A stretch of 40,090 bases of DNA, from NCBI GenBank assembly GCA_003650425.1, contig QMPP01000002.1, positions 1 through 40,090 on the forward strand. Reading direction: 5' to 3'. The DNA comes from Bacteroidota bacterium. Its GTDB lineage: Bacteria > Bacteroidota > Bacteroidia > Bacteroidales > F082. How positions within the stretch are numbered: the stretch's first letter is position 1; each line of letters opens with the position of its first letter. Positions 20,200 to 39,495 of the stretch are shown here, in pieces. Made by a program: the position numbers and the translations under genes. The notes under the pieces are model-generated. The model saw nothing but the letters and a program-made list of their open reading frames with translations. It was not told the origin of the DNA and searched no databases.

Positions 20200-20264
20200 G
20201 AAGTTGTTTAAAGTTAACTTAATGGTTACAAAAGGTAAAACGTTTAAAATCAGAAAACAACTTC
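20200..20264 (+). repeat. Interspersed intergenic repeat, copy 1 (10-bp terminal inverted repeats)
   Basis: GAAGTTGTTTAAAGTTAACTTAATGGTTACAAAAGGTAAAACGTTTAAAATCAGAAAACAACTTC; nearly identical to 38865-38921; ends GAAGTTGTTT/AAACAACTTC are inverted. Confidence 0.85.
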
Positions 20265-20312: not shown

Positions 20313-22418
20313 CTATTGTATCACGACCTTACCCAGCCGGTTTCCCCCGGAGGAGCACACCTTTACCAGATAGATACCGCTTTGCAACGATGACACATCA
20401 AGATTACAAGATGCTGCTTTATTTAAGCTCTCCTTTTCAATTACCTTTTGTCCTGCCATATTATAGACCTCGAGTGAAAATAGTTTTTCTGATTTATTGA
20501 GCAGGGATATCGTTACAATATCTACTGCCGGATTTGGCGAAATAGCCAAAACATCCTCATTGCTTCCATCAGTCTCGTCGATACCCAAGAACGAATACCA
20601 GGCAACCAAACCCGTATTTCCGGCCAGCCATCCCTGATACTCATTAAGAAAATAAAGATCGTTAAGATAGACATCAAAATAGGATGCAAAATTCCAGGTA
20701 GCACCACCATCAACAGTATGCCAAACTGTTTTTTGCGACAAGTACCAACCCTCCTGATCGCTTACAAAATAAACTTTCCCCGAATAGGCTTCCTCGTCAA
20801 AAGTATATGACTTTTCCCAAGAGATGCCGCCATCGGCTGATTTAAACAAAACGCCCTCTTTTGTTGAAGCATACCCTTCATTTTCGTTTAAAAAGAAAAT
20901 ATCCAGTGGTTGATAAATTACCCCGCCGTCATCCAACGTTGACAGCTGCCATTCGTTACCGCCATCAACTGTTCGTAAAATTTGCTTTCCATCGTAATCA
21001 ATTATCCAACCTCTGTTCTCATTTAGAAAAAAGAGGTTTGTGAAATCATAATCCTGGGTAAAGCTCACCTGATTCCAGGAGATGCCGCCGTCCATTGTTT
21101 TAACCAGCACGCTACTATCGTCGCACAAGTAACCAACCTGACTATTTACAAATTGCATATCAACATATCTTACGGAAATATCAGGTACGTCACTATTCGA
21201 CCAGGAAACACCCGCATCAACGCTTTTCATCATTTGCCCATCGGTACTTAAGAAAAAACAGGTATTCGCATCAAGTACTTGCATTTTATAAATACGGGTA
21301 AAAGCATTCAGGGTATCCAGACTCCAGGAAACGCCTTGATTCAACGTGTGCATTATCCCTCCGGTTGCCACCGTAAAGTTAGTAATGGCAAAGCCTTCCG
21401 CATCATTAAAAAAGCCGATTTGCTTAACATTTTGTGTAAGCCCTTTACTCATCTTCTCCCATGTTTGGCCTCCGTCAATAGATTTAATAATCAACCCGTC
21501 AAAACCAACTGCCACCAAATGATTATCGGCACCACTGGCAAAGGCACGTAATGTAGAAAGATAACTATTACCGATATCAATGGGGTCTCCCCACGTTTCA
21601 CCGCCATCATCAGTTTGGATTACCGCTCCTCTCGATAGCACAACCCCTCTTTGATGATCGAAAAAATGTACCCCTTTATAGCTGGCATAACCAATATCAT
21701 GATGTGTCCAGCTATAACCACCATCAGTAGTTTTAAGCAACTCCCCGTCTTCTCCGCAAACCCAGCCTGTATCGGCATCTAAAAAAGTAATTTTGCTATA
21801 ATTTGAATTTTCTTCGGGCGTAGTTTCCGTCCAGGTTAACCCCCCATCATCGGTAACCATGATATAGCCATTGTCGTTACCAACTAATGCGCCCCCGACC
21901 GCACAGCCATGAAGCTCATCGGTAAAAGCAACGCTATTAAACCCGTTATTCTGATTTATGTTGCTCATAATTCTATTCCAGTGTTCGCCGCCATCGGTCG
22001 TTTTAAAAATGATTTTATAGGTTCCCACTATCCAGCCAGTATCATGATTGATAAAATAAACATCGGTCATATCGCCCAGCCAATTAGGTTTTACCTGTTT
22101 TTCCCATTTTTGACCAGCATCAGTAGTGTGATAAATATCACTCCAGCCAACAGCCCACCCCTCATTTTCATCGATAAAAAAGATGCTCCACATAGATTCG
22201 GTATTGTTGCTGTGCTGTAAATCCCAATGAGCACCGCCATCGACAGTATGCAAGATAGTGCCGTTGAATCCGACAACCCAACCTACCTGATCGGAGAGGA
22301 AAAAATCTCCCTTCAGATTATTGGTGGTTGGAAAGGGACTTCGTATTTCCCACTCCATCTGACCATACGCTACCACCGTAAAAGAAAGCAAAAAGAAAAC
22401 TACCATTAATTTTTTCAT
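20313..22418 (-). CDS. Secreted Ycf48-like/BNR beta-propeller protein with type IX secretion (Por) C-terminal sorting domain
   Basis: MKKLMVVFFLLSFTVVAYGQ signal; repeated TxDGGxxW units (TVDGGAHWDL, TTDGGEHWNRI, TTDGGYSWTHH...); C-term AISPNPAVDIVTISLLNKSEKLFSLEVYNMAGQKVIEK...GIYLVKVCSSGGNRLGKVVIQ. Confidence 0.88.
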   Translation of the reverse strand: MKKLMVVFFLLSFTVVAYGQMEWEIRSPFPTTNNLKGDFFLSDQVGWVVGFNGTILHTVDGGAHWDLQHSNNTESMWSIFFIDENEGWAVGWSDIYHTTDAGQKWEKQVKPNWLGDMTDVYFINHDTGWIVGTYKIIFKTTDGGEHWNRIMSNINQNNGFNSVAFTDELHGCAVGGALVGNDNGYIMVTDDGGLTWTETTPEENSNYSKITFLDADTGWVCGEDGELLKTTDGGYSWTHHDIGYASYKGVHFFDHQRGVVLSRGAVIQTDDGGETWGDPIDIGNSYLSTLRAFASGADNHLVAVGFDGLIIKSIDGGQTWEKMSKGLTQNVKQIGFFNDAEGFAITNFTVATGGIMHTLNQGVSWSLDTLNAFTRIYKMQVLDANTCFFLSTDGQMMKSVDAGVSWSNSDVPDISVRYVDMQFVNSQVGYLCDDSSVLVKTMDGGISWNQVSFTQDYDFTNLFFLNENRGWIIDYDGKQILRTVDGGNEWQLSTLDDGGVIYQPLDIFFLNENEGYASTKEGVLFKSADGGISWEKSYTFDEEAYSGKVYFVSDQEGWYLSQKTVWHTVDGGATWNFASYFDVYLNDLYFLNEYQGWLAGNTGLVAWYSFLGIDETDGSNEDVLAISPNPAVDIVTISLLNKSEKLFSLEVYNMAGQKVIEKESLNKAASCNLDVSSLQSGIYLVKVCSSGGNRLGKVVIQ

Positions 22419-22532
22419 AATATATTGGTTTAGATAAGTTAGAATCGAAAAAAAGATATTCGGAATTATTTTACATAAATCCATTTATTGCTATCATTTT
22501 TTAATAACGCGACAATCTTTCGTAATCGCAGC

Positions 22533-24641
22533 TTATTGCACAATAAATTTAGCCAGTTTTTCTCCAAGCGAAGAAGTCACTTTAACCACATAGGTTCCTT
22601 TAGATAACGACGATACATCGAAATTAGTATGACCGATAGCATGGCCTTTACTCGAATGCAGCACCACCTGTCCCATCATATTATAAATCTCAACCGAGTT
22701 TATCTTCTCCGAGTTATTCGAAAGTTCAACCCTGATATATTTTGATGCCGGATTAGGATATACCAGCAAGGCAGATGTATTTTTATCCAACTCGGCCACC
22801 CCGACATGCGACAGATGCAAAGCTATTAGCCCGTTAAACCCACAGAGCCAGCCATACCCATTATTAAAAAAGAAATAGTTTGTTATGCCTCCGTCCAAAT
22901 TAAAATACTGGCTGTCAACCCACGTTTCTCCTCCATCAAGGGTGTGAAACACTCGAGAATCCTTAAAATACCATCCTTCCTCTGTATTTATAAAATGTAT
23001 TTTTGACCTGAAGGAACCGCTAAATACAAAAAACTGTTGCCAGGAATCTCCACCATCGGTAGTTTTAAAAAGCACCCCCTCCTTTGTAGATGCATACCCT
23101 GTATCGGCATTGATAAAACTGATAGCTTGCGGCTCAAACACAAAGCCATCTTCGGTTAACTGTGAATAATACCAGTCGTTTCCACCCGACCTTGTCCGCA
23201 GAATGGTTTTGCTGTTTAGGTCGATAAGCCAGCCAAGATGTTCATCAAGAAAAAATAACGATGTAAAATTGTAATCATCTGTAAAGTTAACCTGTTGCCA
23301 GGTAGTACCACCATCAGTAGTTTTTACCAATACGCTATGGTTACCACACATATAGCCATTATCCTGATCTAAAAACTGTAGATCGTAATAGGTGGTAATC
23401 GTATCAGGAACATCAGTTAATATCCAGCTGTCGCCATTATCAACCGACTTCATCATTTGTGAATTTTCATTTAGCAAAAACCAATCTCCATTCTCTGAAA
23501 ATATCCTGTAAAAAGGGCCATTGTCAATAATAGTATCTTCTACCCATGTGTAGCCACCATCGTGTGTACGCATCATTTTACCATGCCAAAAGCCCGTAGT
23601 GGCAATCCCTTCTAACGCGTTGAAAAACCCTAAACTATAGAATGATAAATCCTGCCCCTTGCTCAATTTTTGCCATGTAATACCCCCATCAACCGTTTTT
23701 GCTATAGTCCCCTCAGAGCCAACCGCAACCAGTTGATTATAAGCGCCACAGGAAAAAGATGTTAACAACGTATTGCTACCAAGACCAATTTGAGCCACCG
23801 AGTCCCAGGTTTCTCCTCCGTCAAATGTTAAACGCACCATATCATAGTCTTCCACCAAAAGTACCCCTCGTTGTTCATCAAAAAAGTAAATATCATTGTA
23901 GTGCTCGTAGGCAACCAAATTATGTTCCGTCCAAGAGTTACCACCGTCAACCGTTTTATACAGCTGTCCGTTTCCTGAAACCCAGGCGGTATTGGCATTA
24001 ATATATGTTACTTTATTAAGACTTTTTGCATCCGGAGGCGTTTTATCAGTCCAGGTAAGCCCCCCATCGTTTGTTACCATCAGCAACCCCGGGCTCTCGC
24101 TTGAGAGACCGCCACCCACGGCACATCCATCAAGTGAATCGCCAAAGCAAACGCTGAAAAAATGTAAGTCGTGATGTGAGTCACTTATTATCCTGTTCCA
24201 ATGTTCGCCGCCATCGGTTGTTCGCAAAATTATTTTATAATACCCTACAATCCATCCGGTATCATGGTTGATAAAAAAGACATCATTCAGGTCGCCAGGC
24301 CAGCTTGGTTTAACCTGGGTTTCCCAGCTTTCACCCCCATCGGTTGTATGATAAATTTTACTCCAGCCCACAGTCCAGCCCTCAAGCGTATCAATAAAGA
24401 AAACGCCACTTAACAGCCCGCCATCACTACTCTCATGCCTCGTGTCCCAGGTAATTCCCCCATCGGAAGTATGCATTACAATCTCCATGTTACCTACCGC
24501 CCAGCCATTCTGAGCAGTGGGAAAAGAGACACTATTAAGTGTTTGGATGGTAGGCGTTGGGCTTAATTGTTGCCAGTCGTTTTGAGCAACTGCCAGTAAA
24601 ACCATCAAAATAAAGGAAAATAGAAATAAAGTTTTTTTCAT
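22533..24641 (-). CDS. Paralogous secreted Ycf48-like/BNR beta-propeller protein with type IX sorting domain
   Basis: MKKTLFLFSFILMVLLAVAQNDWQQLSP; TSDGGITWDT, TTDGGESWETQVKPSWPGDLNDVFFINHDTGWIVG (cf. neighbour TTDAGQKWEKQVKPNWLGDMTDVYFINHDTGWIVG); C-term VYPNPASKYIRVELSNNSEKINSVEIYNMMGQVV...GTYVVKVTSSLGEKLAKFIVQ. Confidence 0.88.
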   Translation of the reverse strand: MKKTLFLFSFILMVLLAVAQNDWQQLSPTPTIQTLNSVSFPTAQNGWAVGNMEIVMHTSDGGITWDTRHESSDGGLLSGVFFIDTLEGWTVGWSKIYHTTDGGESWETQVKPSWPGDLNDVFFINHDTGWIVGYYKIILRTTDGGEHWNRIISDSHHDLHFFSVCFGDSLDGCAVGGGLSSESPGLLMVTNDGGLTWTDKTPPDAKSLNKVTYINANTAWVSGNGQLYKTVDGGNSWTEHNLVAYEHYNDIYFFDEQRGVLLVEDYDMVRLTFDGGETWDSVAQIGLGSNTLLTSFSCGAYNQLVAVGSEGTIAKTVDGGITWQKLSKGQDLSFYSLGFFNALEGIATTGFWHGKMMRTHDGGYTWVEDTIIDNGPFYRIFSENGDWFLLNENSQMMKSVDNGDSWILTDVPDTITTYYDLQFLDQDNGYMCGNHSVLVKTTDGGTTWQQVNFTDDYNFTSLFFLDEHLGWLIDLNSKTILRTRSGGNDWYYSQLTEDGFVFEPQAISFINADTGYASTKEGVLFKTTDGGDSWQQFFVFSGSFRSKIHFINTEEGWYFKDSRVFHTLDGGETWVDSQYFNLDGGITNYFFFNNGYGWLCGFNGLIALHLSHVGVAELDKNTSALLVYPNPASKYIRVELSNNSEKINSVEIYNMMGQVVLHSSKGHAIGHTNFDVSSLSKGTYVVKVTSSLGEKLAKFIVQ

Positions 24642-24668
24642 AATCTTTTGGTTTAGACAAGTTAAGGT

Positions 24669-24676
24669 CAAAGGTA
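24669..24676 (-). promoter_or_regulatory. -7 box TACCTTTG for the 24641 propeller gene
   Basis: caaaggta on +; 27 nt upstream of ATG 24641 and overlapping the track's extended start at 24671. Confidence 0.45.
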
Positions 24677-28901: not shown

Positions 28902-28935
28902 AACGAACTTGTTTAAAGTTAAATTTAATTATTAA
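28902..28935 (+). repeat. Degraded partial copy of the interspersed repeat (copy 3)
   Basis: AACGAACTTGTTTAAAGTTAAATTTAATTATTAA compared with AACGAAGTTGTTTAAAGTCAACTTAATGATTA at 38862. Confidence 0.45.
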
Positions 28936-28945
28936 CAATAAGATG

Positions 28946-37921: not shown

Positions 37922-38827
37922 ATGAAAAGTGTTAAAATTGTATTTTCATTCCTTCTGCTCACGCTGCTATGGCTGGTTTTAATTCCATCGGCTAAAAGCC
38001 AGATGCTTGATACGGCCAATTTGGTCAGAATTAAGCGAACACAAAGTGATGAGCAATTTCCCGCCTGGTCGGAAGATGGCAAGAAGTTGGTTTTTCAGAG
38101 TTCCGGGAAAGGCTATTCTCAACTGTTTTTGTACGACTTTTCCAAAGACACGCTTATTCAAATCACCTTCGATGAAACCAACAAAAGCCACCCGGTATTT
38201 ATTCCTAACCAAAACAAGATTGCTTTTGATGCCACTATTGATAACAAAGTCTATCTCTTTAAACTTAACCTGTCAACGGGATTGCAGCAACCACTTTTCC
38301 AACGAAAGCTGTTTTGCGAAGCCCCTTCTTTTTCCCCTTCGGGGAGATTGGTAATTTTTAAAGGCCACGACCCCAACAACGAAACATGGCAGCTTTTTAG
38401 CTACGATTTTGTTTACGACAACCTGAATCAGCTTACCCATATCAAAAACGCCGAACTCTTTAGGCCCATGCTCTCACCCGATGGTAAAATCATCCTGTTT
38501 GGAACCCGCAATAAAACCGTGCCCTTTAGCCGATCGCTTCACGAAATAAACTGGTATGGCGAAAAAACAGAGGATTTAGATTCGATAGCAGCCTTATCGT
38601 ATGGCTGGCTCGCTAACAGCTACCGGATTGTATACTCAACAAAAGAGCAAAAAAACAACCCCTCTTTTTTCACGATAACAAAAGAAGGTACTTACAAGAT
38701 GCTGTTAAGCCACGACACTCTGCAACGGGTTACCCCTGCCCTGTCGCCGGATGGAAAAAAAATAGCAGTAGCCGTAAAATTTGGCAACAATTTTGATATC
38801 GTTGTGTACAACCTTATTGATGAATAA
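37922..38827 (+). CDS. TolB-like/PD40 beta-propeller protein
   Basis: Signal-like N-terminus; repeated DEQFPAWSEDGKKLVFQSSGKGYSQLFLYDF, APSFSPSGRLVIFKG, FRPMLSPDGKIILFGT, VTPALSPDGKKIAVAV. Confidence 0.85.
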   Translation: MKSVKIVFSFLLLTLLWLVLIPSAKSQMLDTANLVRIKRTQSDEQFPAWSEDGKKLVFQSSGKGYSQLFLYDFSKDTLIQITFDETNKSHPVFIPNQNKIAFDATIDNKVYLFKLNLSTGLQQPLFQRKLFCEAPSFSPSGRLVIFKGHDPNNETWQLFSYDFVYDNLNQLTHIKNAELFRPMLSPDGKIILFGTRNKTVPFSRSLHEINWYGEKTEDLDSIAALSYGWLANSYRIVYSTKEQKNNPSFFTITKEGTYKMLLSHDTLQRVTPALSPDGKKIAVAVKFGNNFDIVVYNLIDE

Positions 38828-38837
38828 GCAAATCTAT

Positions 38838-38845
38838 TATCTTTG
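38838..38845 (+). promoter_or_regulatory. -7 box TATCTTTG not followed by an immediate ORF
   Basis: aatctatTATCTTTGcacc, 11 nt after the TolB-like stop, facing the repeat region and smpB. Confidence 0.4.
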
Positions 38846-38864
38846 CACCACTTATTTTAATAAC

Positions 38865-39040
38865 GAAGTTGTTTAAAGTCAACTTAATGATTACAAAGGT
38901 AAAACGTTTAAAATCAGAAAATAAATATCTTTTTAATTAATCCTCCTTTGTTTTCCCTCCAAAGAAGGAAATAATGGAATTTATTTTCTGATTTACAGTG
39001 TAATATATTTACTTTTGTATATCTAACTTTAAACAACTTC
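38865..39040. repeat. Symmetric nested inverted-repeat element upstream of smpB; left arm is copy 2 of the interspersed repeat
   Basis: Outer arms GAAGTTGTTTAAAGT (38865-38879)/ACTTTAAACAACTTC (39026-39040); inner arms AAATCAGAAAATAAAT (38911-38926)/ATTTATTTTCTGATTT (38979-38994); core TCCTCCTTTG (38941-38950)/CAAAGAAGGA (38960-38969). Confidence 0.85.
39010..39017 (+). promoter_or_regulatory. Candidate -7 box TACTTTTG for smpB, within the right arm
   Basis: TAnnTTTG match 28 nt upstream of ATG 39046. Confidence 0.45.
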
Positions 39041-39045
39041 AAATC

Positions 39046-39495
39046 ATGGCAAACAACATTCGCATAAAAAACAAAAGAGCCTCGCACGAATATTTTTTTT
39101 TGGAGAAATACGTCGCGGGCATCGTGCTAACCGGCACCGAGATAAAGTCGATACGCTCGGGAAAAGCCAGTTTGGTTGATTCCTACTGCAATTTTGAAGA
39201 GGATGAGCTTTTTGTTGTGGGGATGCACATTGCCGAATACACCTACGGAACTTACAACAACCATTTCCCCAAACGGGTACGAAAATTATTGCTCACCGCC
39301 CGGGAGCTTAAAAAATTAAAAAACAAGGTAAAGGACAAAGGGTTAACCATTATTCCCATTACACTTTTTATCAACGACCGTGGCCTTGCCAAAGTAGAAA
39401 TTGCCCTTGCCAAGGGAAAACATTTTTACGACAAACGCGAAGACCTGAAGAAGAAAGACAGTCAGCGGGAGATTGACCGGCAGATGAAACGGTAG
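39046..39495 (+). CDS. smpB: SsrA-binding protein
   Basis: [57 protein letters not shown]...[51 protein letters not shown]. Confidence 0.98.

Follow-up and report, generated by a model that had tools for sequence, protein, structure and literature searches.

Why does a large nested palindrome stand directly in front of smpB, closing 5 nt before its start codon? We addressed this question in a 40,090-nt stretch of DNA (the window), part of contig C2 in the 3.1-Mb draft genome of an uncultured Bacteroidales. An earlier note on the sequence had described the palindrome and offered several readings of it: a MITE-like or REP-like element, paired copies of a promoter or leader, or a structured smpB leader coupled to trans-translation.

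The palindrome and its copies

Both perfect arm pairs lie where the earlier note had placed them, an outer pair of 15 nt (38865-38879/39026-39040) and an inner pair of 16 nt (38911-38926/38979-38994) sharing the centre 38952.5. In 400 dinucleotide shuffles of positions 38700-39200, an arm of at least 15 nt never arose, nor did two arms of at least 12 nt on one centre. No direct repeats were found at the palindrome site. The core hairpin described near the centre is also present (38941-38950/38960-38969, 9 of 10 pairs); it excludes a second stem, the family-consensus TTTCCCTC(CAAA)GAGGGAAA at 38952-38959/38964-38971, which carries one substitution in the smpB copy. The spacers had been called diverged stretches of equal length. 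The equal length holds, and they are not recognisable as copies of each other: aligned symmetrically, they match about as well as unrelated AT-rich DNA. The two promoter-like boxes exist as described (Table 1). Their offsets do not match and most copies of the element have no boxes, so that the idea of paired promoter copies finds no support. Because TANNTTTG occurs in the window at near-chance frequency (64 times against 48.7 ± 6.9 expected), and because both boxes are confined among aligned copies to one subfamily of the element, the boxes alone carry little weight.

The earlier note had also suggested looking for further copies of the 176 nt in the host, and dozens were found. A scored DNA search of the same genome returned 40 matches, further copies having 77-97% identity (among them copies at 97%, 94%, 90% and 89% to the whole 176 bp), and most of them end at the same outer-arm positions as the smpB copy. 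At least 47 copies in this genome bear the core, and 137 terminal inverted repeat (TIR) ends were counted at up to one mismatch, compared with none for the reversed pattern. Aligned copies share one plan (TIR, a spacer of about 30 nt, an 84-nt core, a second spacer, TIR); full copies are mostly 174-178 bp, and no ORF of at least 80 aa overlaps the element. A 3-bp target-site duplication (TSD) flanks 20 of 35 full copies, against 4.4 expected from shuffles (maximum 11); at 4 bp, none of the 35 is duplicated. The 35 rows include L009:966-1172, which reads one copy a second time as a nested match. The duplication at smpB is itself imperfect, with one mismatch.

All 28 copies checked are intergenic. 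The pairs of genes around them, called roughly as ORFs of at least 90 aa, are divergent in 8 cases, co-directional in 13 and convergent in 3, with no preference of orientation. Many contigs start or stop inside copies, as expected since repeats of this kind break assemblies. Many more copies are one-ended relics or internally deleted; some 40 stretches of the same genome (L067-L106) are mostly one-ended, with one exact TIR kept and varied internal cut points. Within the window, the 65-bp derivative at 20200-20264 has an apparent joint at an AAACAA microhomology, from core to right TIR, and similar short forms occur in L098 and L105. Separately, at 20313-24671 of the window, two large ORFs on the minus strand contain numerous 36-nt repeats that include a CCNCCATC-type motif; these ORFs probably encode repeat-domain proteins.

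The MITE-like reading is thus the one that stands: copies are dispersed, the TIRs recur in an IS5-family IS, the TSDs span 3 bp, and relatives show the site empty. The element at 38865-39040 is almost certainly a non-autonomous MITE that inserted before smpB. As a MITE insertion it is ordinary, and the evidence for it is firm.

Table 1. Coordinates of the element, its flanks and its relics in the window.
Feature	Position	Strand	Basis
Whole MITE copy, subfamily A, 176 bp	38865..39040	+	Self-match and covariance-model core match 38897-39008
Left target-site duplication AAC, one mismatch to right AAA	38862..38864	.	Family TSD of 3 bp; empty sites in relatives
Left terminal inverted repeat GAAGTTGTTTAAAGTC, one mismatch to family TIR	38865..38880	+	TIR pattern search
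Left subfamily-specific spacer, with outward TACCTTTG box 38894-38901 (minus strand)	38881..38910	+	Alignment
Conserved 84-nt core, inner arms flanking a hairpin-bearing loop	38911..38994	+	Identity, concerted arm changes
Central hairpin region, two mutually exclusive stems	38941..38971	+	Sequence, alignments
Right subfamily-specific spacer, with TACTTTTG box 39010-39017 pointing to smpB	38995..39024	+	Sequence, alignment
Right terminal inverted repeat, exact GAAGTTGTTTAAAGTT on minus strand	39025..39040	-	TIR pattern search
Right target-site duplication AAA	39041..39043	.	Empty sites; family TSD
Native -7-like box TATCTTTG	38838..38845	+	Same-genus comparison
smpB, 149 aa	39046..39495	+	PF01668, 194.8 bits
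Internal-deletion derivative of MITE, 65 bp, both ends retained	20200..20264	+	
One-ended MITE relic, TIR with one mismatch and left spacer; right limit approximate	28905..28945	+	

A conserved core with concerted arms

The core departs from this ordinary picture. Core identity among this genome's subfamilies A, B and C is 0.95, compared with 0.63-0.76 for the spacers, which are unrelated from one subfamily to another, and a shuffled spacer baseline of 0.59. A covariance-model search found the core in 24 of 80 genomes of the host's family and in 7 of its 16 genera. When 85,462 species were scanned by pattern, perfect-arm cores turned up in 45 stretches, all from uncultured MAGs, whose titles read mostly Bacteroidales or Bacteroidetes and in a few cases "Chlorobiota". 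The settings of the core vary: IS5-type TIRs surround it in most genera, G002 has GTAACTAATCAGTGT ends, and others occur elsewhere. In G002 (L050, L058, L063, L159, L163, L173), the same core is housed in an element that is longer, has other ends (GTAACTAATCAGTGT / ACACTGATTAGTTAC) and includes a second inverted GC hairpin unit. Core loops with extra small hairpins inserted were seen in L170 and L174 of G001 (for example, TCCCGACAAAAGTCGGGA in L174) and in L069 of the host genome, and closely spaced inverted core pairs occur in other genera (G042, G048, G054, G069 and G095).

Two further features involve the inner arms. First, the arms vary between copies yet match within each copy, 89.2% of cells being paired. 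Doubly changed cells number 51, against 20.4 when arms are shuffled, and covariation is 0.233, against 0.119 for the shuffles, which ignore relatedness, and 0.04-0.09 for slid controls, which retain it. Unpaired arm events comprise 10 GT and 12 AC and are strand-symmetric; neither strand is therefore favoured, unlike what is expected of RNA selection. Second, the orientation of the core relative to its flanks appears to have switched in at least three lineages, judging by comparison of copies. With core orientation fixed, subfamilies B and C in G000 have exchanged spacers in 52 of 52 pairs (identity 0.74 when swapped and 0.62 on the same side), the halves of subfamily A being too diverged for an orientation call against either. 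One copy in G003 is switched against seven others (7/7) and one in G095 against two (2/2). Spacer exchange was never seen in within-group controls. Among the loci examined, no orthologous insertion carried the core in opposite orientations in two genomes.

Arm homogenisation together with loop inversion, and no wobble bias on one strand, is the signature that template switching would leave. During replication, switching between the inner inverted arms would copy one arm onto the other and occasionally flip the loop, so that the core would stay palindromic at the DNA level. Published work has attributed homogenised arms and inverted spacers to template switching (PMC8604942), a route that also yields compensatory changes (PMC8794818). 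We therefore consider it likely, on balance, that template switching homogenises the core arms and sometimes inverts the loop. Recombination between copies could also swap halves; one copy, L013 (=L006), appears to have two halves of one type. Our literature search found no paper on MITEs together with template switching. Since a single inverted repeat occurs in this family in many natural copies, which show homogenised arms as well as flipped loops, bacterial template switching could be measured on it.

Conservation of the core, its spread over element types and its repeated flips are unusual, and the MITE label alone is insufficient to account for them. Tentatively, and with more doubt than we attach to template switching, the core may be an independent cassette that is handed among mobile elements whose ends are unrelated and that flips via its inner repeats, such that cores evolve in concert genome-wide while their frames turn over.

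There are two other explanations for the behaviour of the core. One is that it is selected as RNA, whether as a terminator, a leader or a small RNA, and that the MITE persists by supplying structure to its neighbours. Both strands have strong predicted folds (z -6.9 and -6.0), the core is conserved where the spacers are not, and arms changing in concert are also expected under selection on a hairpin. We nevertheless regard this explanation as unlikely, given the near-equal GT and AC mismatches and a loop that occurs either way round with respect to its flanks. A known RNA family was rejected, as Rfam gave no match in the window or in the loci of seven relatives, and a terminator role was rejected as well, the neighbour-pair counts lacking a convergent bias and so indicating no terminator-like placement. 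The other explanation is an inverton, in which a recombinase would flip the core between the inner repeats and toggle neighbours such as smpB. Invertible promoters are well known in Bacteroidales, the inner repeats are perfect over 16 bp, and orientation switches recur, with copies within a single assembly differing in orientation. Yet the segment that would flip at smpB contains no TAnnTTTG box, the core lies at dozens of sites, and the inner arms differ between genomes, unlike a fixed recombinase site; an unsystematic look noticed no linked recombinase. An inverton is thus very improbable, less credible still than selection on RNA. Template switching remains the reading that we prefer.

Insertion in front of smpB

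In four same-genus relatives (G001, G002, G003 and G004), the element is absent, and the sequence from promoter box to smpB ATG is uninterrupted, with a TAnCTTTG box about 20-25 nt 5' of the ATG. G002, for example, reads TTACCTTTGCACCACTTTTTTTAAAATC-ATG, whereas the window reads TTATCTTTGCACCACTTATTTTAATAAC-[176 bp]-AAATC-ATG. Of the 30 smpB loci inspected in the host's family, this one alone has the element upstream. Taken with the evidence for a MITE, the empty sites argue that a transposon struck smpB between its native promoter box and the ATG; among the genomes examined, only this species has a copy there. The native box is thus kept, though it now lies some 200 nt away from the smpB ATG.

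This insertion could act in either of two ways: (i) the MITE may place within the 5' UTR a hairpin of 176 nt that ends 5 nt short of the AUG, and in a transcript from the native box the predicted hairpin reaches about -52 kcal/mol with the AUG region mostly open; or (ii) the TACTTTTG box within the MITE may serve as a weak replacement promoter, this box being subfamily-specific and such boxes being close to chance frequency. That the element is a conserved leader of smpB tied to trans-translation, as the stable fold abutting the gene might suggest, is almost certainly wrong, as the element is missing before smpB at the 29 other loci inspected, the remaining copies adjoin many other genes, and no tmRNA gene was found within the window.

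An apparent smpB regulator is in this way recast as a transposon insertion, a warning for the prediction of leader RNAs. Concerted changes in a stem can arise by arm copying at the DNA level instead of through RNA function.

Relation to known elements

A candidate partner for the MITE is an IS5-family IS. The complete homologue, from another genus of the family (L109:1490-2413), is 924 bp long with perfect TIRs and ATT/ATT flanks; its transposase matches NF033580 (transpos_IS5_3, NCBIfam IS5) at 128.1 bits (cut-off 110), as well as Pfam DUF4096 and DDE domains. The host genome carries a truncated IS with the same TIR at the end of contig C22, which scores 82.5 bits against NF033580, below the cut-off because it is partial. 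The host assembly contains no intact IS with these TIRs, only this right end at a contig edge. Several contig ends in G005 (L112, L113, L115, L117, L119 and L121) carry this TIR and the same 38 aa from the C terminus of the transposase, which suggests a collapsed IS or an IS-derived MITE. The IS and the MITE have the same 16-bp TIR and 3-bp TSD; the interior of the MITE is unlike the IS, so that the ends alone are common and the MITE is not recognisable as an IS deletion. With kinship limited to the ends, we infer mobilisation in trans: an IS5-family transposase would recognise the TIR GAAGTTGTTTAAAGTT and move the MITE, producing the 3-bp target duplications.

REP/RAYT systems (PMC3733652, PMC6006769) resemble the present element as small, dispersed, intergenic palindromes. 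REPs, however, measure 20-40 bp and occur alongside Y1 transposases. The element here spans 176 bp, has both TIRs and TSDs and shows no Y1 link, so that the REP-like reading finds no support. Y1/RAYT genes of the genus lack its hairpin motif; a REP/RAYT origin of the GC hairpin was rejected, since Y1 loci of the genus carry other hairpins and 15 of them lack the motif. Several of these genes (L181, L185, L187 and L189) have short flanking palindromes of their own, of the types GTCCC..GGGAC, GGTGC..GCACC and CCCCTACGGGG.

Closer relatives in kind are the IS5-family MITEs of P. gingivalis (MITE239, MITEPgRS/MITE464, MITE700 and BrickBuilt; PMC4596501), which likewise inhabit a Bacteroidales host and are non-coding, intergenic and multi-copy, with TIRs matching the IS5 family. 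Their TIR sequence is unrelated to the one described here. In addition, the present element has a single 84-nt palindromic core and no minisatellite, and this core is common to several genera and present in both orientations. At the level of the proposed mechanism, the nearest parallel is with quasipalindrome mutations caused by template switching (PMC8604942, PMC8794818), where arms are likewise homogenised and spacers inverted. The published inverted spacers span a few nucleotides; here the loop is about 52 nt, and the changes recur in many copies of one element across several genera.
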